A DNA stretch of 53,290 nucleotides, taken from assembly GCA_020719775.1 (NCBI GenBank), contig DYPS01000006.1, positions 1 through 53,290 on the forward strand, given 5' to 3'. The DNA is from Desulfosporosinus sp. (lineage in GTDB: Bacteria > Campylobacterota > Campylobacteria > Campylobacterales > Arcobacteraceae). Below are positions 1-53,290 of this stretch, one piece after another (within the stretch, counting starts at the first letter, position 1; the number at the start of each line of letters is the position of its first letter). The notes under the pieces were generated by a model. The model did not search any database. It saw nothing but the letters and a program-made list of their open reading frames with translations, and was not told the DNA's origin. The translations under genes were made by a program, and so were the position numbers.

Positions 1-25
1 CAACCCCAACCCCAACCCCAACCCC
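1..25. repeat. Left telomere, CCCCAA repeats
   Basis: About four perfect CCCCAA units open the sequence, ending at the C4 tract at 22-25. With the matching GGGGTT repeats at the other end this marks a natural macronuclear chromosome end. The repeat type is that of Tetrahymena and related oligohymenophoreans. Positions 26-174 are AT-rich subtelomeric DNA with no gene seen. Confidence 0.97.
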
Positions 26-14000: not shown

Positions 14001-14043
14001 TGTAATATGCTGATAATTTAAATTATTATAATAATTATAAATA

Positions 14044-14977
14044 ATGGATTTATTTCAGTAAATTGCCGATCTTCTGCATCTCATAGCAATTATCGCTCTG
14101 TTGTTGAAGATAATAGTAAATAAAAATTGTACAGGTAATTCTATTCTTAGTTAGGCATCTCGTATAGAACTCAATAATTATTCCTAATAGTATTTCTTTG
14201 TCGCTATACTAATATCTTCTTCCACGAATTCAACAGCCAATATGCTTTGATCTATAAATTCATTTATATTTCGCTGACATTTAGCATCATTTGTCTTCTG
14301 AGATGTAAAAAACCCTATTGCCTCACGTTTGATCGAGACGCAGATTCTTTTCCCCATTACTACCTATATCTCATAGCAGTTATCGCTACTATCATATATC
14401 ACAAGCTATAGTTAAATTTATAAAATAGTCTTTGGTCTTTCAGCATATGGCTTTAAACAATGTCAATACTACCTCAACTCTTCATGGTATACAAATTGAA
14501 GAATATTTCTAGAGTTATAATTTGTATTGTTGTGTTGTTGGGTATATATAGAGGACTATATATATGTCATTGGTATGAGTGTGATAATATAGGTTATATT
14601 ACTGGTATGATAGCAATGTAAATTGGATTTCTATGATTGGAGGTATTTTGCAAAGTGCAGTTTATTGTGATTTTTTGCTGTTTAAACTTTGTTCGCATAG
14701 ATTTTTGTTCGTTACTGGGATTTTGTTCAAATACTTTCAGAAAGAAGATAACGAATATGCCCAAAGAATTAAAATGAGGGAAAACAAAGATACAATATAA
14801 ACAAATTAATCACCCGCCATTGTTTTGAAAGAATAAATTAATTTTCAACCTATTTAAACCGATAATGGAAAAAGTTATTTGTAGTAACATCAAACATTAA
14901 ACACGAAATCAATTCTGAAATATTAGAAAGATCTAGGCCAATAAAAAATAAACCTGAGATAAATTCTAAGAGAGTGA
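14044..14977 (+). CDS. KDEL receptor (ERD2) paralogue with long C-terminal tail
   Basis: A multi-pass Golgi/ER receptor that normally retrieves HDEL/KDEL proteins. The N-terminal 210 residues follow ERD2: DLLHLIAIIALLLKI, GISYRTQE, WSFSIWLE with SILPQLFM, and a C-terminal helix. Two 20-nt introns (14135-14154, 14573-14592) sit at the same places as in the gene at 16309, showing duplication. It diverges in the last third and continues for about 80 extra residues of Glu/Lys/Asn-rich hydrophilic tail (total 297, family norm about 212). The end of the final helix is altered (LLFKLCSHRFLF). A 30-nt GT...AG stretch there (a multiple of three) stays open and was left in. The tail would face the cytosol in the ERD2 topology. 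Confidence 0.85.
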
Positions 14978-16223: not shown

Positions 16224-16308
16224 TTTCATTAAATAATGCAATTCATATCATCTTTGAATATATTAGAGTGGTCTATTATTTTAATAAATAACTAAACACG
16301 TATCGAGA

Positions 16309-16984
16309 ATGGACATATTCCAACTCCTCGGAGATTTCCTGCATCTCATTGCCGTGCTCATGTTGCTGCTCAAAATTGTAGCAAACAAAAACGTCATAGG
16401 TATTAATTTATACACATAGGTCTGTCTTATCGTACTCAATAAGCCTTCTTTGTGGTGTTCGTAAGTCGCTATTTAGATCTCTTCTTTGGATGGAAAACCC
16501 TTTATGTGTTCGTTATGAAGATCATTTTCATCTCACTTACCGCCTATACTATCTACCTCATGAAATTTAAAAAGCCATACAATCTCAGTCTAGATCGTTA
16601 ATCAGACTCTTTCCCTCATTATTACATGTATGGAGCAGCTTTACTTGCAGCTATAATCGTTCATAAATCTCTCAATCCTATTGATTTTCTTTGGTCTTTC
16701 AGCGTATGGCTATAAGCATTGGCAATCTTACCTCAATTATTCATGGTTAACAGGTTAAAAGATATATAGAATATCACAGCTCACTACGTCCTCTTTATGG
16801 GGCTCTATCGTGGGTTTTACATTCTTCATTGGTATTTTTAAATTGATTTAGGATATTCCAATGGTAACATGTTGTTTGGACTTCCTTCATTGCTGGAGTA
16901 ATACAAACTTTGCTTTACGCCGACTTCATCTATTACTTCGTGAAGGCCAATCAGCAAGAACGCATTATGAGCTTTCCAGTATGA
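16309..16984 (+). CDS. ERD2: ER lumen protein-retaining receptor (KDEL receptor)
   Basis: The canonical 211-residue ERD2: seven hydrophobic segments, start MDIFQLLGDFLHLIAV, GLSYRTQEAFFVVF, SRYLDLFF, LWSFSVWLEALAILPQLFM, GLYRGFYILHW and C-terminal YADFIYYFVKA. It binds C-terminal HDEL/KDEL signals in the Golgi and returns ER residents by COPI. Introns are 16400-16419 and 16832-16851 (20 nt), matching those of the paralogue at 14044. Glu after YRTQ (TAA at 16440) and in WLE (TAA at 16713) are invariant or usual Glu sites, while Gln in ILPQLF is CAA. This is strong local evidence for the Glu code. Confidence 0.97.
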
Positions 16985-29717: not shown

Positions 29718-30647
29718 ATGAAAAAATCAATATTGATCGCTTCTATATTTTTCATTTCACTCATCGCTGTTTACTTTGAAACTAGTCAATCGAATCCTGA
29801 TACTTTCGAACATTGGAAGACACAATTTGCTGTTAGCTTCGATCCAAAAGAAGAAATGTATAGAAAGTTAATTTTTGAAAAAAATGTCAAAATTATTGAA
29901 ACTCATAATGCAGATACAACCCAAACATATAAAATGGGAATCAATCAATTCACAATTTACTCTCGTGAATAGTTTACTGCCAGATTCCTCATTCACATTC
30001 CTCAACCAATCTCCTCTATAAAAAATGTAGATCACTCTTATGAACCTGGAGATGACATTGATTGGGTCGCTTTAGGCAAAGTATCAAGAGTTGGTACTCA
30101 AGGTCAATGTGGATCTAGTTGGGCATTCAGTGCTACAAGTGCTGTGTAATCATTCTATAAAATCAAAGGGGAAAATATTGATAATTTGTCAGTACAACAA
30201 TTAGTTGACTGTTCATTTTTGGAAGGGAGTGGAGGATGTACTGGAGGATGGCCTCCTTCGGGTCTTAGCTATATTCAAAAACGAGGTGTTGTATATTAAT
30301 ATGACTATCCTTATGTGGCAAAAGATCAAAATTGTCAAGTTCATGGTGGACCCGTTAAAATTGGAGATTGTAGATTGTATTTTTCATGTTCTGACATGCT
30401 TGAAGCAATTAAAAAAGGACTCATTACTTTGTCAGTTGCTGCTAATTAGTGGGTTTCATATAGTAGTGGAGTATTTGACAACTGTCACTCATCTACTAAT
30501 CATGCTGCTCTTTTGGTTGGAGTTGTGGATGGAGCTTGGAAGGTCAAAAATTCATGGGGGACAAGTTGGGGAGAAGGAGGCTATATTAGACTTGCCCCAG
30601 GAAATACTTGCAATATTTGTAGTGCTGGTTTTCAACCTCAAAATTGA
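29718..30647 (+). CDS. Cathepsin L-like protein with Cys-to-Ser active site
   Basis: A papain-family (C1A) protein of 309 residues: signal peptide/anchor (ILIASIFFISLIAVYF), I29 propeptide inhibitor domain (FEHWKTQF, KMGINQFTIYS, REEFTARF) and mature domain. The active-site block reads QGQCGSSWAFSAT: the first Cys of CGSCW is kept but the catalytic Cys at about residue 134 is Ser (AGT). His in NHAALLVGV and Asn in KNSWGTSWGE remain. It could be a pseudoprotease, a binding protein, or a serine-nucleophile variant like Plasmodium SERA proteins. AVESFY, VYEYDYPY and REEF carry Glu as TAA or TAG where the family has Glu. No intron; first of three tandem paralogues. Confidence 0.93.
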
Positions 30648-31447: not shown

Positions 31448-32374
31448 ATGCAAAAGCAACTCTTGGTCGCCTCTCTGATCTCATTGGCTATCCTCGCTGT
31501 CTACTATACCTCATCTGAGGCTAAGCTTGACGCCTTCGAAGAATGGAAGGGACAATTCGGAGTTAACTGGGCCCCTGAAGAGGAAGCCTACAGAAGATTG
31601 ATCTTTGAAAAGAACCTCATTCAAATCAACAAACACAACGCTGATCACACCCAAACCTACAAAATGGGAGTCAATCAATTCTCTATCTTCACCACTGAAG
31701 AATTCGCCACCATTTTCCTTACCCCCATGCCAATGGTCGGAACCCCCAAGGTTGATGAGACTTTTGAAGTTATTGGTGATGTTGATTGGACCACTCAAGG
31801 AGGAGTTTCCCCAGTCAAGAACCAAGCATCATGCGGATCATGCTGGGCTTTCTCCGCAACAGGAGTCCTCGAATCAACTTTACTCGTTCAAAAGAAACAA
31901 GGATCCAGCCTCTCTGAGCAACAATTGGTTGATTGCTCAAGAACTCAAGGAAATCAAGGATGCAACGGAGGATGGCCATCAAATGCTCTTAAGTACATCC
32001 AAGCCAATGGTATTGCCTCTGAAAGTCAATATCCCTATGTTGCTAAGGATCAAGCCTGCAAGACTCAAGGTGGATCAACCAAGATCTCAGGTCAAAAGAG
32101 TTTCTCTGGATGCGCTGGACTTACTAGCGGAATCAACTCTGGACCCATTTCCGTTACTGTTGATGCCACTAACTGGTCACCATACAGAAGCGGTGTCTTC
32201 AACAACTGTGCTGCTTCCATCAATCACGCCGTTCTTTTGGTCGGTGTTGTTGGAGGAAATTGGAAAATCAAGAACTCTTGGGCTACCAGCTGGGGAGAAT
32301 CTGGATACATTAGACTTACTGGAGGTAATACTTGCGGAGTTTGTGCTTACGCTGGTGTTGTTCCCACTCTTTGA
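31448..32374 (+). CDS. Cathepsin L-like cysteine protease (canonical)
   Basis: A complete 308-residue papain-family protease. A signal peptide (LLVASLISLAILAVYY) and I29 propeptide (FEEWKGQF, MGVNQFSIF, TEEFATIF) precede the mature enzyme with catalytic Cys in NQASCGSCWAFSAT, LSEQQLVDCS, CNGGWPSNA, catalytic His in NHAVLLVGV and Asn in KNSWATSWGESGYIRL. It should act in lysosome/phagosome or be secreted. It has no TAA or TAG codon at all and strongly C-biased third positions, unlike both flanking paralogues, which points to very high expression. No intron. Confidence 0.97.
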   Translation: MQKQLLVASLISLAILAVYYTSSEAKLDAFEEWKGQFGVNWAPEEEAYRRLIFEKNLIQINKHNADHTQTYKMGVNQFSIFTTEEFATIFLTPMPMVGTPKVDETFEVIGDVDWTTQGGVSPVKNQASCGSCWAFSATGVLESTLLVQKKQGSSLSEQQLVDCSRTQGNQGCNGGWPSNALKYIQANGIASESQYPYVAKDQACKTQGGSTKISGQKSFSGCAGLTSGINSGPISVTVDATNWSPYRSGVFNNCAASINHAVLLVGVVGGNWKIKNSWATSWGESGYIRLTGGNTCGVCAYAGVVPTL

Positions 32375-32772: not shown

Positions 32773-33912
32773 ATGTATAACAGTAAAAGTTCAGGTTTGG
32801 TTTAAACCTTCGATATTGAGGATGCCAATCCTTCCAAAAACAGTTGGATCGATCAAATAAAAGACAATCACTTCTTTAAAGCCATCTTTACTAAACAAAG
32901 TATATTGGGATGTTTGGTTGTTTTGGCCCTAATTCTCATTTATATAACTTCATCATCCTTCAATGATGAAACATCTATGAAGTTTTAAAAATGGAAAGCA
33001 TAATATGCTCCAAACAGCAAGATGAGCCCTGAAGAAAATCATTATAGATTTCAAATTTTCAAAACAAATGTAGATATTATAAAACAGCACAATGCTCAGA
33101 AAGACGTTTCTTATCAAATGGGAATCAATCAATTTGCAATCTACACTGCTGATGAATTTAGATAAACTTACTTGATGGCTAATTTTGCCTAAAATTATGC
33201 CTTAGCTGAGACTGAATCAATTACCAATGGAATGAAGACATCTCCAAATGTTAATTCTCATCCTTTAATTGTAAAAGCAACTTCGGACATAAATTGGCAA
33301 AAAAAGGGCAAAATAACTGCAGTTAAAAATCAAGGAGCATGTGGATCGTGCTATAGCTTTGCAACAGTTGGATTAATATAAAATAAATTTTTGAGACTTT
33401 CCAACCTAGCAACTGATCTTTCCTAACAGCAATTAGTTGATTGCACAACTGGATATGGTAATGTAGGTTGTAATGGTGGCAATATTCTTAATTCACTTTA
33501 TTATATTATTGCCAATATTAATGCAACGACTACTATTAAGGTAGGCATTACATCATAGAGTATTTACCCTTATCGTGGAAATTATGGAGCTTGTTCATCT
33601 CTTGGAGGAAACTACAAAATATCAGGAGGATACTATTATACTGGCTGCAACAATATTATTTTTGGACTTCAAACATCAGCTGTTGGATTGTATGTTGATG
33701 CAATCGATTGGCCACTCTATTCAAATGGAATTTTTACTGGATGTGCGCCAGTTGCTACTATTAATCATGCTGTGCTGTTGGTGGGAGTATCAAATGGAAC
33801 TTGGATAATTAAAAATTCATGGGGGAATACATGGGGATAAAATGGATTTATCCGATTACCAGCTGGAAATTCATGTGGTATTTGCACTTACTCCGGTTTC
33901 ACAACTTATTGA
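32773..33912 (+). CDS. Membrane-anchored cathepsin L-like cysteine protease
   Basis: A 379-residue papain-family protein. Unlike its two neighbours it begins with about 45 polar residues before a transmembrane segment ([14 protein letters not shown]), predicting a type II membrane topology with the protease in the lumen. I29 propeptide ([27 protein letters not shown]) and mature domain follow. The catalytic Cys is present in [11 protein letters not shown], where the near-invariant Trp after it is Tyr. His (NHAVLLVGV) and Asn ([16 protein letters not shown]) are intact. LSEQQ carries Glu as TAA at 33424. The prodomain-mature junction has an extra Asn/Ser-rich insert. No intron. The TM prodomain layout recalls apicomplexan falcipain/CPL enzymes. 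Confidence 0.92.
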
Positions 33913-34145
33913 TACTTCATCAATTTATTATTTATCACTTAGCCTACTAAATAACCATCATTATACTACCAAAGATACTATACGATCAGGAAAGTTCATC
34001 CCATCAACCAATGAAACTACCAATCCGATCTGATGGAGTATTAGGATCAACATGATATCATGTATAGATGCACTAGCCTTATTATTATGTCAGATTTTTA
34101 TTCTCTTCAACTATTTACAATAATATCTAACAAGTTAATACCAAC

Positions 34146-35679
34146 ATGTTCCTGTCCAGTTTCGGAAGAAGGGCTATGCTTGCTTCATCACCTAGATTCG
34201 GGTTTAGCGTTTCAAATGAATCCACTTTCTTAGAAATGGTCTCTCAGTACTTTGATAAGGCCGGAGAGGCAACCGGCATCTCCAAAGATAGACTTGAGTT
34301 TTTGAAAAAACCCGACTACTCACTTAAATTCAATATTCCATTCAAAACAGGTATTTTTTGGCTTAAGCAGACGCTGGTCTCATCGAAGTTGTCGAAGCCT
34401 ATCGTGTTCAGCACAAAACCCACAAACTTCCCACTAAAGGAGGAACAAGATACGCTAGCAGCATCAATCTTCAAGAAGTTGAAGCTCTTTCTTGTCTTAT
34501 GACAATCAAAAACAGCATTGCTGGACTCCCCTATGGAGGAGCTAAAGGAGGAATTAAAATTGATCCTCGCAGTCTCTCCAAAGCAGAAATTGAAAGAGTT
34601 ACCAGAAACTATACTACTGCTTTATGCAAAAAGAACAGTCTTGGTGCTGCCATTGATGTCCCGGGACCTGATATTGGAACTGGAGAGCGAGAAATGACTC
34701 TTATCAAGGATCAATATCAAGTTCTTTATGGTCATAAAGATATCAACTACGCAGGAGTCACAACCGGAAAGAGTCTTCATCATCACGGTATTCGAGGAAG
34801 AGAGGAGGCCACAGGATTGGGAGTATTTTACTCAGCTAGACAAATTCTCAACAATGAAGAGCAGTTAAATAAGCTTAACGTTACTAAGGGACTTAAAGGA
34901 AAGAAATTCATTGTTCAGGGTTTCGGAAACGTTGGATATTGGGCATCCAAATTTTTTGTAGAGGATGGAGCCATTTTGATCGGAGTTGCTGAAGCTGATG
35001 GAAGTTTCCTTTGTGAAGATGGTATTAACCCTGATGAACTTTGGGCCTATAAGAGAGCCAAGAAGGGAACAAAAGGTTATCTTGCAGCACATCAAAAGAC
35101 AGGCACATAATTCATCAACGAGGATGCTATCTACGAAAAATGGTATAAATTATGTTATTCAGCGATATCTTCATTCCAGCTGCCTTCGAGCAATCAATCA
35201 ATGTCAATAACGCTGATAGATTCCAATGTAAATTAATCATAGAGGCTGCTAATGGACCAACTACCCGTAAAGGTGAGGATATTCTTCTTAAAAAAGGAGT
35301 TAGCTTCCTTCCCGATGTACTTTGTAATGGAGGTGGTGTCACTGTCAGTTACTTCGAATGGTTGAAAAACCTAGAGCATGTGAGATGGGGTCGTCTACTT
35401 AGAAAATGGTAATAAAAATCAAAAAGAAATTTCCTTTAAGTTATCGAAAAGGCTACTCAAGTTGATCACACTAAATTTGTTGAGGCTGAGAAATTTTTGT
35501 TAGAAGGTGCCAAAGAAAAGGATATTGTATATGGTGGTCTAGAGTAAGTTATGTCAACTGCAACAAACTAAGTTTTGGATGTGGCTTCCGCTAAGAATTT
35601 GGATCTTCGTACTGCAGCTTACGTGCTGGCAATCAACAATCTCAACGAATACTATCTTACCCGTGGAATTGAAATTTGA
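34146..35679 (+). CDS. Glutamate dehydrogenase
   Basis: A 497-residue Glu/Leu/Phe/Val dehydrogenase interconverting glutamate with 2-oxoglutarate and ammonia, probably in mitochondria (N-terminal MFLSSFGRRAMLASSPRFGF looks like a presequence). Substrate-site Lys lie in KGGTRYAS and PYGGAKGGI; DVPGPDIGT and REEATGLGVFY follow; the Rossmann fold has GFGNVGYW; then CDIFIPAAFE, IIEAANGPT and VLCNGGGVTVSYFEW. Introns are 34351-34370 and 35143-35162 (20 nt). Cofactor preference (NAD or NADP) cannot be read safely. C-terminal ITRGIEI-like end is normal for the family length. Confidence 0.96.
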
Positions 35680-53255: not shown

Positions 53256-53290
53256 GGGGTTGGGGTTGGGGTTGGGGTTGGGGTTGGGGG
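53256..53290. repeat. Right telomere, GGGGTT repeats
   Basis: Six GGGGTT-type units end the sequence, complementary to the CCCCAA repeats at the other end. No C3A3-type variant units are present at either end, unlike the mixed repeats typical of many Paramecium species. The 137 bp between this and the last start codon hold nothing recognisable. Confidence 0.97.

Follow-up and report, generated by a model that had tools for sequence, protein, structure and literature searches.

A cathepsin L-like gene, a putative pseudoprotease gene, is located at positions 29718..30647 (+ strand) of the window, the whole 53,290-base stretch of DNA that was analyzed. The gene is intronless, encodes 309 amino acids when read in ciliate genetic code 6 and ends with a TGA stop codon at 30645-30647. 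An AGT codon at 30117..30119 (+) specifies Ser134, which replaces the nucleophilic Cys25 (papain numbering) of the family; gene and product are therefore called the Ser gene and the Ser protein here. The protein begins with a predicted hydrophobic N-terminal signal sequence covering approximately residues 1-25 (29718..29792, +), with a hydropathy peak of 2.02 at residue 5; secreted pro-cathepsins have a similarly hydrophobic start. This is followed by an I29 propeptide inhibitor domain at residues 30-86 (29805..29975, +; Pfam PF08246), which shows the ERFNIN-type spacing E-x3-R..F..N..I..N, and by a papain-family C1 domain of predicted fold at residues 112-302 (30051..30623, +; Pfam PF00112). 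The I29 profile scored 57.5 bits (cut-off 24.4, E 1.7e-15) and the Peptidase_C1 profile 151 bits (curated cut-off 20.7, E 6.4e-44). With both domains above their cut-offs, the Ser protein is by homology a cathepsin L-like member of peptidase family C1A.

Reading of the codons and their translation gave QGQCGSSWAFSAT as the nucleophile block, with Ser134 inside. The other active-site residues are all kept, namely oxyanion-hole Gln128 (30099..30101, +), catalytic His262 (codon CAT, 30501..30503, +), catalytic Asn278 (codon AAT, 30549..30551, +) and Trp280; they correspond to the oxyanion Gln, His159, Asn175 and Trp. The sequence-only reading had proposed a Ser codon at the position of the nucleophile within an otherwise preserved active site and behind a preserved propeptide, and both statements proved correct. 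The Ser protein thus lacks the nucleophilic Cys25 of an active C1A cysteine peptidase, and it combines the absence of an essential catalytic residue with an open frame and a kept fold, as is characteristic of a pseudoprotease.

The Ser gene is the first of three C1A cathepsin genes arranged in tandem on the same strand. The second (31448..32374, +), referred to as the Cys neighbor, encodes a paralogue of 308 amino acids which carries the catalytic Cys and is 50% identical to the Ser protein. All indels between the two are whole codons. The cysteines of the Cys neighbor, including those of the disulfides, are all matched in the Ser protein except for the nucleophile, and an extra Cys218 has been gained. 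The third gene (32773..33912, +) has also kept the Cys and differs by an N-terminal extension and an internal hydrophobic segment. This segment, at approximately residues 44-62 after the extension, resembles that of a type-II membrane-anchored pro-cathepsin and is a possible type-II membrane anchor; furthermore, the product has Tyr in place of the Trp adjoining the catalytic Cys. Two additional C1A genes, both with Cys, are located on contigs C37 and C162, giving five C1A genes found in all.

TAG85, TAA144, TAA194 and TAG244 interrupt the frame of the Ser gene unless TAA and TAG encode Gln, as they do in code 6. The earlier statement that the frame is intact accordingly holds under ciliate code 6 and fails under the standard code. 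A standard-code reading, with its four in-frame stops, was considered and rejected, as the telomeres, the approximately 20-nt introns and the code-6 neighbors speak for code 6. Within the 309 codons, zero TGA stops and zero frameshifts precede the terminal TGA. The window opens with a (CCCCAA)n telomere repeat at its left end (1..25, +) and closes with (GGGGTT)n at its right end (53256..53290, +). Many neighboring genes in the window are likewise open only under code 6, and the GT(A)..AG spacings across the window peak at 20 nt (56 versus a background of about 25). Telomeres at both ends, code-6 genes and introns of about 20 nt identify the 53,290-base window as an entire ciliate macronuclear chromosome, telomere to telomere (C4A2/G4T2). 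A glutamate dehydrogenase gene at 34068-35679 is interrupted by two GT..AG introns of 20 nt, a size below the modal intron length of 25 bp reported for Paramecium (PMC5014332).

The nucleophile column was compared among 18 aligned sequences. Cys was found in 4/4 paralogues of the same organism and in 13/13 viral-contig homologues, and Ser134 was unique. As all 17 compared relatives have Cys, the Ser is an exception rather than a feature of the family; by this alignment, Ser134 is the derived state. An orthologue scan with the Ser protein against genome_contigs (84,980 species) returned five distant matches only, and those examined were bacterial. A viral_contigs search with the Cys paralogue as query gave no match, and among 60 relatives and 399 same-order genomes strong matches were obtained only in the assembly of the window itself. 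No orthologue of the Ser gene turned up, only paralogues, every one of them with Cys.

An AlphaFold model of the Ser protein built from 4 sequences was poor (pLDDT 46); a model built from 16 sequences, with a mean pLDDT of 77.5 and mostly >80 in the mature part, was used in its place. The mature part of this model superposes on cathepsins and plant papains with TM-scores of 0.81-0.87 (target length) and an rmsd of 2.2-3.0 Å; the superposing structures include cathepsins S and K with the C25S mutation. The closest PDB relatives by sequence are pro-cathepsins and related plant proteases.

Selection was analyzed with a codon model over five genes, the Ser gene and its four paralogues. The omega of the Ser branch was 0.16, a rough value since branch lengths are large and dS is saturated; omega = 1 was rejected (2dlnL 14.3, p = 1.6e-4), indicating purifying selection as a branch average. 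The value did not differ significantly from that of the other branches (p = 0.40). As a branch average it combines the periods preceding and following the change from Cys to Ser, which cannot be dated, and together with the saturated dS this means that it does not prove constraint after the change. Conservation was furthermore tested independently of dS. Substitutions on the Ser branch avoid conserved columns: of the 73 columns without variation among the four paralogues, the Ser protein kept 61, and of the 87 less conserved ones that only the Cys neighbor and the C37 protein have in common, it kept 43 (Fisher p = 6e-6). In a neutral simulation at matching divergence, roughly half of the invariant columns survived and about four TGA stops arose. 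The suggestion of the sequence-only reading that the gene is maintained is therefore supported by the branch-averaged rejection of omega = 1 and by the conserved fold and non-nucleophile cysteines.

The Ser gene evolves faster than the Cys neighbor. In a relative-rate test against C37, 56 unique changes were counted in the Ser gene and 21 in the Cys neighbor (p = 8e-5); the corresponding numbers were 38 versus 21 (p = 0.036) and 37 versus 17 (p = 0.009) against the other two paralogues. Among the invariant residues lost in the Ser protein are D241A and, in the loop and helix of the nucleophile, K126G, N127T, C134S and G141S. N127T alone is not diagnostic, because one Cys-bearing viral-contig homologue also has Thr in this column. 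An enrichment of changes in the substrate-cleft segments was not found (12/39 versus 27/80); hence, outside the nucleophile and the residues adjoining it there is no obvious sign of a functional loss. Codon usage was less biased in the Ser gene than in the Cys neighbor, with a GC3 of 0.23 versus 0.43 and a TAR-Gln portion of 22% versus 0%, which is compatible with weak or lower expression.

We consider it probable that the Ser protein is a secreted or lysosome-routed ciliate pro-cathepsin L paralogue which has lost its nucleophile and persists as a catalytically dead pseudoprotease. The exchange of Cys25 for Ser has taken away the nucleophile, but fold, propeptide and the remaining active-site frame are kept. 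By analogy with SERA5 of Plasmodium and with engineered C25S enzymes the protein is expected to be inactive, and its putative signal sequence suggests secretion. The intact papain cleft and/or the I29 propeptide could then bind peptides, inhibitors or partner proteins with no turnover, and the Ser protein might thereby compete with active cathepsins or regulate them, e.g., the tandem Cys neighbor, which is the obvious candidate for a partner. Such a regulatory or decoy role is proposed by analogy with SERA5. A more specific version, in which both genes form a conserved pair and the Ser pseudoprotease is devoted to the adjoining active cathepsin, either regulating it or serving as its propeptide-cleft partner, an alveolate parallel to SERA5 with an independent origin in a ciliate, is speculative and on present evidence unlikely.

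Alternatively, the gene may be a recently inactivated copy which is drifting toward a pseudogene, with a late change from Cys to Ser, purifying selection mostly older than this change and active neighbors remaining. AGT is one base away from TGT, the Ser gene shows the faster evolution and the low-bias codon usage described above, and the enzymatic role could be filled by the active-type paralogues in the neighborhood and on other contigs. However, 309 codons have remained without TGA stop or frameshift, and the other invariant-site changes beside the nucleophile suggest that catalytic constraint has been absent for some time with structural residues being kept; we therefore regard a recent inactivation as rather doubtful. 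The same changes bear on a sequencing or assembly error at 30117 with TGT as the true codon. A single erroneous base would suffice, but the frame is otherwise unbroken, and K126G, N127T and G141S, as independent changes at invariant sites, mark the active-site loop as truly diverged, which makes such an error very improbable.

The Ser protein could also be a changed enzyme in which Ser134, His262 and Asn278 form a weak serine-type hydrolase or transferase, similar to the use of Ser in the cathepsin fold of silicateins. The protein has Ser, His and Asn as well as the oxyanion Gln, and some papain-fold enzymes keep partial activity after exchange of Cys for Ser, for which negative charge is thought to be helpful (PMC10318531); the mature domain of the Ser protein contains 15 acidic residues versus 9 in the Cys neighbor, a count for the whole domain and not for the pocket. 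On the other hand, C25S abolished the activity of papain and of cathepsins L and S (reviewed in PMC4671257), and two of the changes, K126G and N127T, sit directly at the nucleophile loop. The sequence-only reading had named a decoy, a receptor or a changed enzyme as possible roles, which sequence alone does not tell apart. Together with G141S, these changes beside the nucleophile speak for an inactive product rather than for a re-tuned enzyme, and a new catalytic function seems improbable to us.

The catalytically dead pseudoprotease which we prefer has a documented counterpart in SERA5. Natural SERA5 of Plasmodium, with its Ser, has no detectable peptidase activity, a version with Cys is active, and parasites with a Ser-to-Ala exchange grow normally (PMC4671257). 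As natural SERA5 is inactive and the Ser-to-Ala parasites are normal, its role is non-enzymatic, with a peptide-binding cleft; loss of SERA5 leads to mistimed egress (PMC5500368). The parallel to SERA5 which the sequence-only reading had drawn is thus a valid one, since SERA5 is a documented functional pseudoprotease with Ser in place of Cys (PMC4671257, PMC5500368). SERA5 and other serine-type SERAs share with the Ser protein a papain-like domain with Ser for Cys, Cys-type relatives and an alveolate origin (PMC4671257, PMC5500368). In contrast to the Ser protein, which is a plain pro-cathepsin of 309 amino acids with only signal, I29 and C1 parts, SERA5 is a much larger, SUB1-processed protein of the parasitophorous vacuole with the papain-like domain in its central fragment. 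Membership of the Ser protein in the SERA family was rejected, as it lacks this large multi-part build with a central papain-like fragment. Because the nearest relative of the Ser protein is the Cys paralogue in tandem with it, sequence relationships indicate that its Ser arose independently of that in SERA5.

Sponge silicateins are likewise cathepsin L-like proteins with Ser-His-Asn and conserved disulfides (PMC3820600), and the Ser-His-Asn set within this fold is found here as well. Silicateins are catalytic, silica-condensing filament proteins, whereas here nothing points to silica and the Ser goes back to a Cys paralogue of the ciliate. TINAG and TINAGL1 are multidomain extracellular-matrix proteins of animals, unlike the Ser protein, which has no additional domain. 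They resemble it as inactive papain-fold relatives (PMC10318531). The SMIPP-C proteins of the scabies mite are also cathepsin-like, exist as many paralogous copies and carry mutations in their catalytic sites (PMC5956821), but they are mite-specific with many inactive members, whereas one presumably inactive copy is present among the five genes found here. Tetrain and TtCysP1-6 of Tetrahymena are secreted ciliate proteases of the papain family (cathepsin L family) with a propeptide, as here (PMC1403784); they are active with a catalytic Cys, and their closer equivalent is the Cys neighbor at 31448-32374, not the Ser gene.

Papain pseudoenzymes with Ser for Cys or with other inactivating changes are already well documented in malaria parasites, vertebrates and mites by the SERAs, the TINAG-type proteins and SMIPP-C, and the Ser protein is probably an independently arisen ciliate case of this known kind. 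No report on a Ser variant of a papain-family protease from ciliates was found in the open-access literature searched. If confirmed, the Ser protein would represent a ciliate papain pseudoprotease with an independent exchange of Cys for Ser, in a group that belongs to the alveolates like the malaria parasites. With its tandem Cys paralogue it would be a cleaner case than SERA5 for comparing what a dead papain cleft is kept for. If not confirmed, it would be another pseudoenzyme of a large protease family.

Additionally, some observations were made on the assembly and on the remainder of the window. The ciliate chromosome is misbinned in an assembly of 2.85 Mb that is otherwise rated as a complete prokaryotic genome, and completeness and contamination scores did not flag it. 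Contig C37 also opens with a CCCCAA telomere repeat (positions 1-43). A tubulin search of the same assembly gave one match without stop codons, on contig C36, which is possibly bacterial FtsZ. In the window, two paralogues of the ER lumen protein retaining receptor (KDEL receptor) are located close together at 14007-14636 and 16236-16943.
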